From positions 1-39,520 of the forward strand of contig JAPYPT010000009.1 of assembly GCA_029937535.1 (NCBI GenBank): 39,520 bases of DNA, written 5' to 3'. Below, in pieces: positions 30,302 to 37,894 of the stretch (its first letter is position 1; each line of letters opens with the position of its first letter). The position numbers and the translations under genes were made by a program. The notes beneath the pieces were generated by a model that was not told the DNA's origin, ran no database searches, and was given only the letters and a program-made list of their open reading frames with translations. This stretch comes from Alphaproteobacteria bacterium. Lineage in GTDB: Bacteria > Pseudomonadota > Alphaproteobacteria > GCA-2731375.

Positions 30302-31456
30302 ATGAAGATTGCCGTATTGAAAGAGCGGCGGGCTGACGAGCGGCGGGTGGCGGCAACGCCCGAGACCGTCAAGAAATTCGTCGGTCTTGGTGTCGAGGTT
30401 GCCGTCGAGTCCGGCGCCGGGGCCGCGGCTCATTATTCGGACGACGATTTTCAAGGGGCCGGCGCCTCGATCGCCGCCGATCCGGCCGCCACCCTGGCTG
30501 GCGCCGACCTGATCCTGAAGGTCCGCCGGCCGATCATGGAAGATGAAAACGGCGACAACGAACTGACCCGGATGCGATCGGGCCAGGCCTTGATCGCCAT
30601 GTTGAACCCGTTAATCCGCCGCTCTGATTGTGATGCCTACGCCGCGGCCGGGATTGATGCCTACGCCATGGAATTGATGCCCCGCATCAGCCGGGCGCAG
30701 GGCATGGATGTGCTGTCCTCTCAGGCCAACCTGGCCGGCTACAAAGCCATATTGGATGCGACGGAAGAATTCGGCCGGGCTCTGCCGATGATGATGACGG
30801 CGGCGGGCACCATCGCACCGGCGAAGATATTTGTCATGGGCGCCGGCGTCGCCGGGTTACAGGCTATCGCGACCGCGCGCCGCCTCGGCGCCGTGGTTTC
30901 GGGCACCGATGTCCGCCCGGTCGCCAAGGAGCAGGTGGAAAGTCTGGGCGCCAGTTATGTCATGGTCGAGGATGCGGAAAGCGCCCAGGCCGAGACGGAG
31001 GCCGGCTACGCCAAGGAAATGAGCGAGGACTATCAAAAAAAGCAGGCGGCCCTGATCGCCGAGACCGTCGCCAAGCAGGACATTGTGATTTGCACCGCCC
31101 TTATCCCGGGCCGCGCCGCGCCGATCCTGCTGGATGAGGCCATGGTGGCCTCCATGAAGCCCGGCTCGGTGATTGTTGATCTGGCGGTGGAGAATGGCGG
31201 CAACTGCGCCTTGTCCGAGATGGGCAAGGTGGTCGACGTCAACGGCGTCAAGATTATCGGCCATGCCAATTTTCCGTCCCGGCTGGCGGTGGATGCTTCC
31301 AATTTGTATGCCCGCAACCTGTTCAATTTTCTCTCCCCCCATATTGATGGCGAGAACGGCACGCTGTCGTTCGATTTCGAGGATGAGACCGTTTCCGGCG
31401 TTTGCCTGACCAGGGGCGGCGCGGTGATCCACCCCATGTTGACGGCAAAATGTTGA
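30302..31456 (+). CDS. pntAA: NAD(P) transhydrogenase alpha subunit, part 1
   Basis: This is the soluble NAD(H)-binding domain I (384 residues) of the proton-translocating transhydrogenase, which makes NADPH from NADH at the expense of the proton gradient. Domain marks are ERRADERRVAATPETVKK near the N-terminus, the RQD-loop region around LMPRISRAQGMDVLSSQAN, and the dinucleotide fold VMGAGVAGLQAIATARRLGA with VVSGTDVRP. As in Rhodospirillum rubrum, domain I is encoded on its own. The last codons lie inside a 14-base tandem duplication that creates the present stop. Confidence 0.96.
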   Translation: MKIAVLKERRADERRVAATPETVKKFVGLGVEVAVESGAGAAAHYSDDDFQGAGASIAADPAATLAGADLILKVRRPIMEDENGDNELTRMRSGQALIAMLNPLIRRSDCDAYAAAGIDAYAMELMPRISRAQGMDVLSSQANLAGYKAILDATEEFGRALPMMMTAAGTIAPAKIFVMGAGVAGLQAIATARRLGAVVSGTDVRPVAKEQVESLGASYVMVEDAESAQAETEAGYAKEMSEDYQKKQAALIAETVAKQDIVICTALIPGRAAPILLDEAMVASMKPGSVIVDLAVENGGNCALSEMGKVVDVNGVKIIGHANFPSRLAVDASNLYARNLFNFLSPHIDGENGTLSFDFEDETVSGVCLTRGGAVIHPMLTAKC

Positions 31457-31463
31457 CGGCAAA
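31436..31463 (+). repeat. 14-bp tandem duplication across the pntAA stop codon
   Basis: ATGTTGACGGCAAA occurs twice in a row (31436-31449 and 31450-31463). The TGA stop of pntAA (31454-31456) lies in the second copy. With only one copy the protein would end MLTANC instead of MLTAKC, and the distance to pntAB would be 14 bases shorter. Confidence 0.85.
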
Positions 31464-31490
31464 TTGTTGAGCGCGAAGGAGTAACCGCCA

Positions 31491-31790
31491 ATGGATGTGG
31501 CGAATAGCATCGATCCATTCATCTATCGCCTGGCGATTTTCGTTCTGGCGATTTTTGTCGGCTACTATGTGGTCTGGTCCGTTACGGCGGCCCTGCATAC
31601 GCCGCTGATGAGCGTCACCAACGCCATCTCGTCCGTCATCATCGTCGGCGCGTTGATCGCCGCGGGACCGGTTGATATGTCCTTTTCCAAGATTCTTGGC
31701 ATCGTCGCCATCGGGCTGGCGGCGGTGAATATATTCGGCGGCTTCCTGGTGACCCAGCGCATGCTGGCCATGTACAAGAAAAAGCAGTAG
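31491..31790 (+). CDS. pntAB: NAD(P) transhydrogenase alpha subunit, part 2
   Basis: A 99-residue membrane protein that supplies the first helices of the proton channel (domain II). It has three to four hydrophobic segments: LAIFVLAIFVGYYVVWSV, the SVIIVGALIAAG stretch after TPLMSVTNAISS (a family signature), and ILGIVAIGLAAVNIFGGFLV followed by TQRMLAMYKKK, the conserved C-terminal end. A strong AAGGAG lies upstream. The gene stands between pntAA and pntB, with an 11-base gap to pntB. Confidence 0.96.
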   Translation: MDVANSIDPFIYRLAIFVLAIFVGYYVVWSVTAALHTPLMSVTNAISSVIIVGALIAAGPVDMSFSKILGIVAIGLAAVNIFGGFLVTQRMLAMYKKKQ

Positions 31791-31801
31791 GGGCCTAAAT
31801 T

Positions 31802-33184
31802 ATGTCGGCAAATCTGACGGCCCTGGCCTATTTGATCGCTTCGGTTTTGTTCATCATGGCCTTGCGCGGCCTGTCATCGCCCGAATCCTCTCGCAGCGGC
31901 AACGTCTACGGCATGATCGGGATGGCCATCGCCTTGGTCACCACGGTGATCAATCCCAACGTCGTCTCCTACGAATGGATTCTCGGTGCATTGGTTGTCG
32001 GCGGCGCCATCGGCACGCTTATCGCCCGGCGCATCGCCATGACCGATATGCCGCAGCTGGTGGCCGCGTTTCATAGCCTGGTGGGCCTGGCTGCCGTGTT
32101 GGTGGCCGCCGCCGCCTTTTATAACCCGGCCGCCTATGGCATTGCCGGCGCGGATGGTTTGCTCAAGCTGGCCAGCCGTATCGAAATGGGCATCGGCGTG
32201 GTGATCGGCGCCGTGACATTTTCGGGCTCCATCATCGCCTTTGGAAAATTACAGGGCGTGGTCACCGGCAACCCCATCACCTTTACCGGACAGCATGCCC
32301 TGAACGCGGCCTTGGGCGCGGTGATCGTGCTGCTCGTCGTTTTATTCGCTATCGGCCCCGACCCGCAATGGTTCTGGGCCATGACCGCGATAGCGTTCAT
32401 TTTGGGGTTTTTGTTGATTATCCCCATTGGCGGGGCGGATATGCCGGTCATCGTCTCCATGCTGAACAGCTATTCCGGCTGGGCCGCGGCCGGTATCGGT
32501 TTCACGCTGGAGAATACCGCCCTGATCATCACCGGCGCCCTCGTGGGGTCGTCCGGCGCCATTCTGTCCTACATCATGTGCAAGGCCATGAACCGCTCTT
32601 TCATCTCGGTCCTGTTGGGCGGCTTCGGCGGCGATACCGCCGTCTCGGCCACCCGCAGCGACAAGCCGGTGAAAGCCGGCAGCGCCGAAGATGCGGCCTT
32701 CATCATGAAAAACGCCTCTTCCGTGATTATCGTGCCCGGCTATGGCATGGCGGTGGCCCAGGCCCAGCATTCGGTTCGCGAAATGGGCGATATGCTGAAG
32801 GGGCATGGCGTCAAGGTAACCTACGCCATCCACCCCGTGGCGGGCCGCATGCCCGGCCACATGAATGTGCTGCTGGCGGAGGCCAACGTTTCCTATGACG
32901 AGGTTTTCGAGTTGGATGAAATAAATTCCGATTTTTCCAACACCGACGTGGCCTTCGTCATTGGCGCCAACGATGTCACCAACCCCGCCGCCCACGAACC
33001 AAATTCCCCCATCGCCGGCATGCCCATTCTGGATGTGGAACGGGCGCGAACCTGCCTGTTCGTCAAGCGCAGCCTGTCGCCCGGCTACGCCGGCATCGAC
33101 AACGAATTGTTCTACGCCGACAACACCATGATGCTGTTCGCCGATGCAAAAAAAATGGTCGAGGATATCGTCAAGGCGCTATAG
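31802..33184 (+). CDS. pntB: NAD(P) transhydrogenase beta subunit
   Basis: A 460-residue protein with the remaining domain II helices (about 1-280) and the NADP(H)-binding domain III. Domain III begins after the conserved SFISVLLGGFG segment and contains the nucleotide fold PGYGMAVAQAQHSVREMGDM, then HPVAGRMPGHMNVLLAEANV, ELDEINSDF, VIGANDVTNPAA and VKRSLSPGYAGIDNELFY, all typical of PntB. It completes the three-gene set for proton-coupled NADPH production. Confidence 0.97.
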   Translation: MSANLTALAYLIASVLFIMALRGLSSPESSRSGNVYGMIGMAIALVTTVINPNVVSYEWILGALVVGGAIGTLIARRIAMTDMPQLVAAFHSLVGLAAVLVAAAAFYNPAAYGIAGADGLLKLASRIEMGIGVVIGAVTFSGSIIAFGKLQGVVTGNPITFTGQHALNAALGAVIVLLVVLFAIGPDPQWFWAMTAIAFILGFLLIIPIGGADMPVIVSMLNSYSGWAAAGIGFTLENTALIITGALVGSSGAILSYIMCKAMNRSFISVLLGGFGGDTAVSATRSDKPVKAGSAEDAAFIMKNASSVIIVPGYGMAVAQAQHSVREMGDMLKGHGVKVTYAIHPVAGRMPGHMNVLLAEANVSYDEVFELDEINSDFSNTDVAFVIGANDVTNPAAHEPNSPIAGMPILDVERARTCLFVKRSLSPGYAGIDNELFYADNTMMLFADAKKMVEDIVKAL

Positions 33185-34502: not shown

Positions 34503-35309
34503 TCATCGCAGGGTGGGATAACCCTTCGCCGCCGCACCGGCTTCCATCTCCAGCATCACGTGGTAGTCATCCAAGGATAGATCGGCAAACCCTTCGATCA
34601 TCAGATCCCCACGCACCATGGCCAAATCGGGATCGGCCATGACCCGGTCCAGGGCGGCGCGCAGCCGGGTCCAGTCATCGGGCGGGGTCGCCGCACCGGT
34701 GACATAGGGCAGGGCGGGGGCGGCGTCGGTCATCGTCAGCACCCGGGTACCCGCCAGCGAGCTGGGTTCATGGCGGGCCATCAGGCCGTGGGTGACGCAA
34801 TCGATGGCGGCAACATCCGCCTCACCCTCGCCGATCATGGCAATGGAAAGGTGGTGTTTGCCCGCCACCTTGACCGCGCCGAAAAAACGGCCGTCCCGTG
34901 CCAAAGGCGCGATGGTGTGGCGCAACACATTCATGCCGGATTGGGAATCCCAATCGTTGATGGCGCAGATGCCGCCCCGCAAATCTTCCAGGTCCTTGGC
35001 GGGACTATCGGCGGCCACCACGATCAGGCTGCGGTAGGTGGGACCGTCACAGCCATCGGCGCCATAGATCGGCGTGGCCAGCAGGGTCAGATGATCCGTG
35101 AAATGTTTCAACAGGGGATAGCCGCAGGTCTGGCTCAACAGCAATTCAGGCGCCCGCCACAAATCCTCGCGGCTGCCTGTCCGCCACAGGTCCCCCGGCA
35201 CGCCTTCCAGGCCCTCCCGCTGGCAGGCCCGCGCCAATCCGGCCCACCAGGCATCCACGGCGCCGCGCACCGGGGCCAGGTCATACATGGGCAGGCCGGC
35301 CATCCTCAT
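34503..35309 (-). CDS. PhnD-like substrate-binding fold protein
   Basis: A 268-residue protein of the PhnD/SsuA type-2 periplasmic binding fold. Marks: LPMYDLAPVRGAVDAWWAGLA at the start, LLLSQTCGYPL, a first-lobe segment YRSLIVVAADSPAKDLEDLRGG, INDWDSQSGMNVLRHTI, and the second-lobe DVAAIDCVTHGLM. Such proteins bind phosphonates, phosphite or similar anions for ABC uptake. There is no signal peptide and no transporter gene beside it, so it may act in the cytoplasm rather than in uptake. It overlaps the selenoprotein gene by four bases (ATGA), hence translationally coupled to it. Ligand unknown. Confidence 0.75.
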   Translation of the reverse strand: MRMAGLPMYDLAPVRGAVDAWWAGLARACQREGLEGVPGDLWRTGSREDLWRAPELLLSQTCGYPLLKHFTDHLTLLATPIYGADGCDGPTYRSLIVVAADSPAKDLEDLRGGICAINDWDSQSGMNVLRHTIAPLARDGRFFGAVKVAGKHHLSIAMIGEGEADVAAIDCVTHGLMARHEPSSLAGTRVLTMTDAAPALPYVTGAATPPDDWTRLRAALDRVMADPDLAMVRGDLMIEGFADLSLDDYHVMLEMEAGAAAKGYPTLR

Positions 35310-36967
35310 CCAACGCGCCCAATCACCACTTCGCTGACCGCCCTGGTGTTGCCGAACGAGGGCACGATGGCCGAATGGCGGCCCGCCCCGCCCGCGACCA
35401 CCAACTGGATATCTTCGTGGCTGGTGGCGATACGGGCGCCCCCATCGCCATCCGCCAACAGCCGCTCGGGCACATACTGGCGCATGATGGTCCGCTGGGG
35501 TTCGGACAGGGAATGGGCGGGGATCAAGGCCCGTTCCATCAAAAATTTTCTGATGTCGGCCTTGGAAAAGCCATCGCTGGCCATGATCTCCGCGTGCTCC
35601 GGCCCTAGGACCACCATGATCTCGCCGCCCAGGTAGCTGTTATTGAGGCCCGGCGAGGACATGGTGCCGCCGAGGGTCATCAGGATCTCCTCCGCCGTCT
35701 TGCCGTAGTGATCGTTGACGTTATGGGGCCCCTCCACGCCGCACAGGGTGACCACGCTCTGTTCCGCGTCAAAGCCCCGTTCCATGGCCAGGGTTTCGCC
35801 CCAAGGGTTCTCCCCGACCCGTTCGGCGAAGCAAAAGCTGTATTTGGCTGGGCTGCCCATGGTCGCCCGGTCCAGAATGCCCGGCGTGCCGCCGCCCACA
35901 TTCAGCAGGATGGAGCGCAACGCCCGGCCAATGGCGGCATTGGCCAGACTGCCCTGGCCCATGGCGTTGTAGGTACTGTTGACATCGATCTCATCCGCGA
36001 TGGGCCCGCTGATCAGAGCCATAAGGGTGCAAGGATGGGTCGTGGTGTTCAGGGCCTTGAGGTTCAGGGCGGGCTGTCCCATGGCCTTGGTGGCGGCCAC
36101 CAGCACCCCCAGATGCCCGGGCTGGCAGCCGGCCATGACCGCGTTGACCGCCACCTTGGCGATGGTCGCCTGGCCCTGGCGAGGTTCGATCAGGGCGAGG
36201 CGTTCATCCGGGTCGTATCCGCTCTCGCCCAGCATTTTCTCGTAGCGCTCCGGCGTCGGTGGAATGATGGGCAGGCCATCGGTCCAGCCCCGGCTGTAGA
36301 ACAGGCGGTTGACGCCATCCAGATCGTCCGGGCCGTTCAGACGGTCGGGCGCATCGGGGGCGGAAAAATTGCCCTCGAACATGGATTTGTAGCGCAGGCG
36401 CTGTTTCACGGGGGGCTGTTTTTCCTTGAACTCGGCGCGCAGGTCCGCAGCATCCGTGTGCCACAGCCGGATGATTTCATCGACTGTATCCCGGGCCATT
36501 GCCGCGACTTCGTCCGCCAACAGTTTCGCGACGGGGTGCGGCACGATGGCGATGGGCAGACCGGGCAGCCCGAGGCATTCGGTCTCCGCCTTGCCCAGAG
36601 AGTAGAATTCGTCGCTGCAAATGGTCGCGGTGGGGATGCCGAGGCTTTCCAGTTTGATGCTGTCATGGATACACCACGACGTGCACGAGCCTCAGTCGCC
36701 GAAAGCGGCGGCCACCATGTGGCAACGGTTCAGGAATTCATCGGTAAACTCCGCCGGCACCGAAGCCGCCTTGTAGCCGCGCAGGAATTCCACATCGTCA
36801 TAGCGGGCCGCCAACAATTCCTGGATGTTGTCCAAAAACAAATCCGCATTGGCCTTCTGGTTGGAAAACAAACCGATGACGACTTTGCCGCCCTTCGGTA
36901 GGCGTGGGGCCAGGGCTCTATCCTCGTTGGCGACGATGCCGCAGGGGTTCATTAATTCGCGGACCAT
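35306..36967 (-). CDS. UGSC-family selenoprotein (in-frame UGA = selenocysteine 92)
   Basis: Two minus-strand frames, 36967-36692 and 36544-35306, are in the same phase and separated only by one TGA at 36694-36692; the codons between it and 36544 are open. Read through, they give a 553-residue protein in which TGA gives Sec92 followed by Gly-Ser-Cys: AAAFGD-Sec-GSC-TSWC. This is the motif after which the UGSC selenoprotein family is named, with Sec and C95 forming a UxxC redox pair. A hairpin starting 12 bases after the TGA meets the bacterial SECIS rules. The first 180 residues form the UGSC domain (GKVVIGLFSNQKANADLF, ATICSDEFYSLG, LPGLPIAIVPHP). The rest (GLPIIPPTPERYEKMLGE, AVMAGCQPGHLGVL, NVGGGTPGILDRATMGSP) is a second domain whose chemistry I cannot name. 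ATG 36967 has a perfect AGGAGG eight bases upstream. Confidence 0.88.
36662..36680 (-). promoter_or_regulatory. Candidate bacterial SECIS hairpin
   Basis: On the minus strand, starting 12 bases after the TGA, GTCGTGG (36680-36674), loop TGTAT and CCATGAC (36668-36662) form seven pairs, one of them G-U. The second loop base is G (36672), 20 bases downstream of the TGA. Known bacterial SECIS elements have a short upper stem, a small loop with G at position one or two, and 16-37 bases between UGA and that G. The fit is direct; binding by SelB is inferred. Confidence 0.7.
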
Positions 36968-36975
36968 GGGTTATT

Positions 36976-36981
36976 CCTCCT
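36976..36981 (-). promoter_or_regulatory. Consensus ribosome binding site of the selenoprotein gene
   Basis: AGGAGG on the minus strand, eight bases before ATG 36967. It is the strongest ribosome site in the window and fixes the start of the UGSC gene upstream of the UGA codon. Confidence 0.8.
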
Positions 36982-37057: not shown

Positions 37058-37894
37058 ATGAAACTTGGTGTTCACATACCCCAGATCGGGCGCAAGGCCG
37101 GGCCGGAAGCCGTGCGCCGGGGCGCCCGCCAGGCGGAAGACCTGGGCTTTGATTCGATCTGGGTCAATGATCATCTGGCGATCCCCCACGATGCCCCCTA
37201 TCCGCCATCGAAGAGTTTTTATGAACCGCTGATCACCTTGACCTGGGCGGCGGCGGCGACCACGCGGGTGGAACTTGGCACCTCCGTCCTGGTGCTGCCT
37301 CTGCGCATTCCGGCCCACCTGGCCAAGGAGCTGGCCACGCTCGATCTGTTAAGCGAGGGCCGCTTGATCCTGGGCACCGGCGTCGGTTGGATGGAAGCCG
37401 AATTCGATGCCATGGGGGTGCCCTTCGCCGACCGGGGCGCCCGCACCGACGATATCATCAATATCCTGCGGGCCTGCTGGGAGGAAGATCCCATCACGTA
37501 TTCCCCGACCACGGTGACCGCCGCCCTGGAAGGCATTCGTACCCTGCCGCAGCCGGGCCGCAAAATTCCCGTCTGGGTCGGCGGTAATTCCGCCCCCGCC
37601 CTGCGCCGGGCCAAGGCCATGGGCGATGGCTGGCACGGCACCCGGGTGCCGGTGCCGGAAATCGGCGCCATTGTCGATGATCTGCGCGCCGCCCGTGGCG
37701 CGGATTTTGTCATCTCCATGCGGCTGTTCTGGGATCCGTTGGAAGATGATCATGATGCCTTGAAGGAGATGGCGGAGGGCTACGCCACGGCCGGCGTCGA
37801 TGCCCTGATCCTTGAGCCGCGCCAGCGCGGGCTTGATGACTGGCTGCGCGCGGTGGAGGGTCTGTGGACCCTGCTGCAACCTTGGCACAATTAA
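37058..37894 (+). CDS. LLM-class flavin-dependent oxidoreductase (F420-type subfamily)
   Basis: A 278-residue luciferase-like monooxygenase fold (TIM barrel). Marks: KLGVHIPQIG at the first strand, AEDLGFDSIWVNDHL, TTRVELGTSVLVLPLRIPAHLAKELATLDLLSEGRL and GTGVGWMEAEFDAMG, then IPVWVGGNSAPALRRAKAMGDGW. These fit the subfamily often labelled F420-dependent, but the cofactor (F420 or FMN) cannot be told from sequence. The start has GAGGAG upstream. It is divergent from the selenoprotein gene with a 90-base gap, and is followed by an amidohydrolase gene 20 bases downstream, suggesting a small catabolic unit. Confidence 0.88.
   Translation: MKLGVHIPQIGRKAGPEAVRRGARQAEDLGFDSIWVNDHLAIPHDAPYPPSKSFYEPLITLTWAAAATTRVELGTSVLVLPLRIPAHLAKELATLDLLSEGRLILGTGVGWMEAEFDAMGVPFADRGARTDDIINILRACWEEDPITYSPTTVTAALEGIRTLPQPGRKIPVWVGGNSAPALRRAKAMGDGWHGTRVPVPEIGAIVDDLRAARGADFVISMRLFWDPLEDDHDALKEMAEGYATAGVDALILEPRQRGLDDWLRAVEGLWTLLQPWHN

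Follow-up and report, generated by a model that had tools for sequence, protein, structure and literature searches.

Does an in-frame TGA on the minus strand of this alphaproteobacterial contig end a short gene, or does it encode the selenocysteine of one longer protein, and what would such a protein do? In the window, that is the whole stretch of 39,520 nucleotides that was analysed, a frame of 91 codons runs into a TGA (36694-36692), and the codons directly beyond it, Gly-Ser-Cys, open a phase that continues for 461 codons in all. The first-pass annotation had taken these two apparent genes for one UGSC-family selenoprotein. Our analysis agrees: curated profile cut-offs were passed, the TGA is conserved, and the machinery for selenocysteine (Sec) insertion is present. 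As judged from sequence comparison, the protein is most likely a Sec-dependent reductase that acts on small organic molecules and is linked to thioredoxin.

Selenocysteine at an in-frame TGA

When the sequence was re-read, the minus-strand frame was found to run from an ATG at 36967 to a terminal TGA at 35308-35306, the first TGA being codon 92. As the annotation had reported, the upstream part is preceded by a consensus ribosome site (GGAGGA, 36980-36975), and the only start listed by the ORF finder for the downstream part is a GTG at 36544, inside the UGSC domain. The read-through product scored above the cut-offs of both Pfam UGSC (PF24696; 152.7 bits against 25, E = 1.4e-44) and NCBIfam UGSC_fam (NF041046; 138.7 bits against 125), and the profile match (residues 5-170) extends across the TGA. 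The residues around the TGA had been likened to the family's motif; they read GD-U-GSCTSWC, with the column conserved in relatives. By these profile matches the gene is a real member of the known UGSC family. Neither the family nor the fusion is new: the 2008 GOS survey describes a UGSC selenoprotein fused to a conserved unknown domain (UGSC/Unknown_1; PMC2398784), an NCBI family model exists, and UGSC proteins are listed among the most abundant selenoproteins of aquatic metagenomes, with 8.2% of marine selenoprotein genes (PMC9402790).

Table 1. Features of the selenoprotein locus, in window coordinates
Feature	Position	Strand	Basis
One selenoprotein gene of 553 residues with Sec92; UGSC domain fused to the Unknown_1 partner domain	35306..36967	-	Frame, profile scores, TGA conservation, dN/dS
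Shine-Dalgarno sequence GGAGGA, 7 bases ahead of the ATG	36975..36980	-	Read from sequence
UGSC domain (residues 5-170), alpha/beta fold predicted to be flavodoxin-like	36458..36955	-	Pfam PF24696, NF041046, model, Foldseek
TGA codon for Sec92, which opens the U-G-S-C motif; Cys95 as the resolving residue	36692..36694	-	Conservation; Cys in homologues from selA-less genomes
Bacterial SECIS region, UGA and 52 downstream bases; apical hairpin 36680-36662	36640..36694	-	Folding energy, covariation
C-terminal partner domain (Unknown_1 of the GOS survey)	35324..36349	-	Partner-copy counts; no Pfam, NCBIfam or PDB match
PhnD-like substrate-binding-protein gene	34503..35309	-	PF12974, E 8.6e-21
Divergent luciferase-like (F420/FMN) oxidoreductase gene	37058..37894	+	TIGR03619, 222.8 bits against a cut-off of 166.9

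The annotation had proposed that homologues be aligned to see whether they carry Sec or Cys at position 92, and that selA, selB, selC and selD be sought in the same genome. A single scan of 84,980 species genomes yielded 80 loci, and TGA occupied the Sec position in all 74 independent foreign loci that cover it, at protein identities of 25-89%; because the scan was built on patterns derived from the query, the ratio of Sec to Cys among its loci is skewed toward Sec-type relatives. UGSC matches occurred in all 15 genomes of the order (2-8 per genome), and exactly one TGA was present in 92 of these 93 matches, the remaining one being a 32-residue fragment at a contig edge that stops short of the Sec position. 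Among 399 genomes drawn across the phylum, six had UGSC, including the window's own genome. Two of these (G190 and G361) carried TGA copies together with selA, two (G425 and G194) carried intact Cys copies and no selA, and one (G327) retained a frameshifted Cys-form relic, again with no selA (C6:12789-13246; L119, L122). In all, selA scored above its cut-off in nine of nine tested genomes with TGA copies and in neither of the two with intact Cys copies. Cys was also found at this position in several annotated plasmid records. The window's genome, a fragmented set of 534 contigs that is probably a metagenome assembly, has selA beside selB and, in addition, selD and a tRNA-Sec (selC) with anticodon UCA, so all four genes that had been asked for are present. 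Both proposed checks came out in favour of selenocysteine. It also holds two SelD genes above the cut-off (C274:12847-13773 and C422:7037-7954; L123, L124), one with an in-frame TGA and the other within a frame of 787 codons, possibly encoding an Ndh-SelD fusion.

The reading frame is maintained by selection. Comparison with the two closest relatives gave dN/dS values of 0.08-0.10 for the part ahead of the TGA, 0.09-0.11 for the part immediately following and 0.15-0.16 for the C-terminal domain; purifying selection thus acts on both sides of the TGA, and the open frame beyond it is not a product of chance. The RNA that follows the UGA was then considered. The 55 nt from the UGA folded at -21.1 kcal/mol (z = -3.1), and hairpin segments folded alone gave non-significant values (40 nt, z = -1.8; 56 nt, z = -0.35). 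For the apical hairpin, columns 15-21 were paired with columns 27-33, counted from the TGA, in a 57-sequence alignment and compared with 500 shuffles. Pairing was found in 92.7% of cells against 83.3% in shuffles, and 24 cells had changed on both sides against 4.9; no shuffle reached either value. The signal was lost when the partner strand was slid, and the closing pair has switched from GC to CG in 11 sequences. The lower stem of the window's own fold was not conserved across the alignment. Coding constraint could account for part of the hairpin's conservation, but not for the compensatory changes, and the convincing support for a SECIS element consists of the 55-nt fold and the covariation only. 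The locus therefore bears a mark of bacterial selenoprotein genes, an in-frame UGA with a bSECIS hairpin downstream, and comparison between genomes shows UGA 92 to be decoded as selenocysteine.

If the TGA were a true stop, the locus would consist of a 91-residue gene with a second, independent gene or a pseudogene behind it. Standard gene calling does split the gene at this codon, as had been predicted, and the annotation of a relative in Acidovorax sp. T1 covers only the 96-residue front part; yet the TGA is kept in 74 of 74 loci, Cys replaces it only where selA is absent, the hairpin after it covaries, purifying selection runs across the join, and the downstream part would have to start within a conserved domain. 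On the strength of conservation, covariation and the Cys forms we reject a stop or a pseudogene, to which we assign next to no probability. The locus is instead an example of how standard gene calling cuts selenoprotein genes at the catalytic residue.

Variants at the redox positions were seen in individual records. A Chloroflexi contig (JACPQD010000008.1; L063 2076-3743 and 7728-9401) has five UGSC-profile matches in one stretch, of which one has the motif U-G-T-U, where TGA takes the place of the resolving Cys as well as that of Sec, and another, an extra paralogue, has Ser (TCA) in place of Sec. On the Acidovorax sp. T1 IncP plasmid (L126, NZ_CP021650.1, 6908-7198) a Sec-form UGSC fusion appears in the annotation only as a hypothetical protein of 96 residues that stops at the Sec TGA. 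A plasmid of Sporomusa termitida encodes a UGSC/partner fusion with Met for Sec and Ser for the resolving Cys (L129, 6704-8428), apparently a redox-dead variant, adjoining an FAD-dependent oxidoreductase.

The C-terminal partner domain

The first-pass annotation could name no function for the second domain. That held for database matches, since the domain (residues 207-549) had none in Pfam, NCBIfam or PDB, but a role can be assigned from gene context: by its distribution it is a near-obligate partner of UGSC, fused or adjacent. In the window's genome UGSC is present in seven copies and the C-terminal domain in nine, all nine lying within the seven UGSC loci; the domain is fused at two of these loci and a separate neighbour at the rest, with a second copy at two. 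In a UGSC profile search of the 80 foreign loci both domains were found in 75. At four of the five loci without a UGSC match the partner gene begins at the contig start, which leaves one clear exception, a Poribacterium (L074). The order of the two varies, the C-terminal domain being fused, upstream, downstream or on both sides of UGSC.

The fold of the domain was predicted with AlphaFold2 (pLDDT 92.3), and no significant PDB fold match was obtained. The best hit, to a class I fumarate hydratase, was not significant (E = 1.5e-3) and had a TM score of 0.23-0.26, below that of a fold match; it was treated as noise. PDB sequence searches with single sequences or profiles of the fusion, the C-terminal domain and PrdB-like proteins likewise returned insignificant matches only. 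Homology of the domain to GrdB or to UGSC itself was rejected, as hhalign gave background-level scores of 16.4 and 15.2. The residues invariant in 37 fusions include Asp230, Arg348, Asn356, Glu382 and Trp389, which are plausible substrate contacts.

Predicted fold of the UGSC domain and proposed kinship to GrdB and PrdB

The 2008 GOS survey guessed at a thioredoxin-like fold for UGSC (PMC2398784). The PDB fold matches of our full-length model (pLDDT 90.7) were flavodoxin-like proteins such as diflavin flavoprotein, WrbA, AzoR and flavodiiron protein. No match fell below E = 1e-3, and no thioredoxin appeared among the top 50. The UGSC domain is accordingly predicted by the model to be flavodoxin-like and not thioredoxin-like, the latter fold being unsupported in the Foldseek comparison.

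The same genome encodes several proteins of the Pfam family GRDB (PF07355), at least four of them with TGA at the UxxC position. In one example the sequence U-PVC-HQTVSLTARYLEANGIPTV can be set beside the UGSC sequence U-GSC-TSWCIHDSIKLESLGIPTA, with the same spacing to LE..GIPT. Profile comparison by hhalign aligned UGSC with GrdB/PrdB at a score of 41.3 (E = 2.9e-5) over 58 columns; the highest control scores were 15.8 for reversed or column-shuffled profiles and 23.7 for unrelated families. When Sec and the +3 Cys were masked in each profile, the score was still 37.2 (E = 1.2e-4) and the register was unchanged. None of 37 UGSC fusions matched the Pfam GRDB profile up to E = 10. We infer that the UGSC domain is remotely homologous to the Sec subunits of glycine and D-proline reductase and is not a member of that family. 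In Pfam scans the C-terminal domain resembled neither of the pyruvoyl subunits PrdA and GrdE, nor did it resemble the GrdB profile, so the analogy to the glycine and D-proline reductase complexes is a partial one. The PrdB/GrdB-like Sec proteins, at least four, lie on contigs C365, C101, C354 and C352 (L104, L105, L106, L108), making this a genome rich in UxxC selenoproteins outside the Stickland fermenters.

A proposed thioredoxin-linked reductase

Gene neighbourhoods in several distant lineages link UGSC to thioredoxin. Cys-form loci on plasmids had the order trxB, trxA, C-domain gene, UGSC gene in Arthrobacter ERGS1:01 and C-domain gene, UGSC gene, trxB in Roseovarius THAF8, and in Variovorax SRS16 trxB is upstream of the C-domain and UGSC genes, three genes away; the trxB and trxA proteins of these three loci pass NCBIfam equivalog cut-offs. 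Thioredoxin reductase-like flavoproteins with a CxxC motif were found 16-55 bp before UGSC in Sec-form loci on Reyranella-type contigs and between two UGSC fusions in a Sec-form betaproteobacterial locus (L053), and another lies 4 bp after the C-domain gene at the C464 locus of the window's own genome. Within the window neither trxB nor trxA was found near the selenoprotein gene. No trx gene adjoins this copy, and its reductant is therefore assumed to be shared.

Other neighbours were less specific. The ATG of the PhnD-like gene overlaps the selenoprotein stop (ATGA), so the two genes are probably in one operon; no obvious signal peptide was seen by eye in the PhnD-like binding protein. Genes of the luciferase-like (LLM) type also occur near UGSC elsewhere, and in some records the neighbours are CoA transferases, CoA ester lyases, isocitrate-lyase-type genes, short-chain dehydrogenases and uptake receptors. 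These suggest catabolic settings and name no substrate. TctC-type receptors made up 9 of 92 neighbours; such receptors are abundant in the Burkholderiales concerned, and for this reason they were not used as functional evidence. Genes annotated as phosphosulfolactate synthase were seen near UGSC in the haloarchaeon Natrinema (L125, 4491-4958) and the actinobacterium Arthrobacter (L128, 4689-5477), a possible clue to a substrate. Elsewhere in the window (30302-33184), three consecutive plus-strand ORFs resemble by eye the pntAA-pntAB-pntB subunits of a proton-translocating transhydrogenase.

From these observations we propose a mechanism. By the comparisons made, UGA 92 is decoded as selenocysteine by SelB and tRNA-Sec with the help of the hairpin just downstream, which places a Sec92-x-x-Cys95 redox pair on a putative flavodoxin-like fold. 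As the partner subunit, the C-terminal domain would bind a small organic substrate and orient it; the Sec92 selenolate would attack the substrate held there, so that a bond is broken or reduced, and Cys95 would resolve the selenium adduct. Thioredoxin and thioredoxin reductase would then re-reduce the Se-S pair, as suggested by the UxxC motif and by trxB and trxA beside UGSC in other lineages. The several copies within one genome are probably variants for different substrates. Taken as a whole, this proposal of one Sec protein with a GrdB/PrdB-related UGSC domain, a substrate-holding partner and a reductase reset by thioredoxin seems to us probable.

Two other functions were weighed against it. 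UGSC might be a general thiol/selenol-disulfide oxidoreductase of thioredoxin-like fold, for which the fused domain is merely a redox client or docking domain. The UxxC motif, the GOS survey's own statement (PMC2398784) and the trxB and trxA neighbours would also fit this, but the confident model matches flavodoxin-like proteins, and a role of that kind would not call for 2-8 diverged copies in a genome, every one with a partner of its own; we regard it as unlikely. Slightly less likely still is that the protein is not a substrate reductase at all, the C-terminal domain performing a lyase- or hydratase-type step and UGSC only sensing or repairing the redox state. The CoA transferases, CoA ester lyases and isocitrate-lyase-type genes near some UGSC loci would suit this, as would class I fumarate hydratases as the weak top fold matches of the C-terminal domain, were those matches not insignificant and their TM scores (about 0.23-0.26) not below any fold match. 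Moreover, the UGSC partner almost always carries Sec or Cys, and this speaks for a role in catalysis.

The thioredoxin-linked reductase may extend to a class. We suggest tentatively, and at somewhat less than an even chance, that UGSC and Unknown_1 form a distinct class of thioredoxin-linked, Sec-dependent two-component reductases, distantly related to GrdB/PrdB, with an unrelated substrate-binding partner of unmatched fold and with paralogues specialised by compound. In bacteria that are mostly aerobic, such enzymes would cleave or reduce various small organic compounds. In the UGSC passages of the open-access literature we found no mention of the partner's obligate association across lineages, of the GrdB/PrdB similarity or of the thioredoxin operons, nor, in the open-access UGSC literature, of 2-8 copies in all 15 genomes of the order. 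With a partner domain, thioredoxin operons and GrdB/PrdB similarity recognised, and with natural Cys forms in organisms that have been cultured, the function of UGSC becomes testable at the bench.

Among known systems the closest is the published UGSC/Unknown_1 fusion, with which the window gene shares the UGSC motif, the Sec position and above-cut-off profile scores; as far as the survey's description goes, by which Unknown_1 is equated with our partner domain, there is no essential difference, except that a thioredoxin-like fold was assumed there (PMC2398784) and our model does not support one. Thioredoxin-like UxxC selenoproteins have the UxxC redox pair in common with UGSC, which differs from them in its predicted flavodoxin-like fold and its obligate, substrate-type partner domain. 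With GrdB/PrdB (PF07355) the likeness goes further: UxxC, the same spacing to the LE..GIP helix-strand, a profile match that keeps the register, the presence of a partner subunit, an operon that sometimes includes trxB or trxA, and several Sec paralogues per genome. UGSC nevertheless differs from GrdB/PrdB in its much shorter domain without a direct Pfam match and in a partner unrelated in sequence to the known pyruvoyl subunits. Unlike GrdB/PrdB, UGSC also has members in lineages such as haloarchaea and Arthrobacter, where to our knowledge Stickland-type reductases are not expected.
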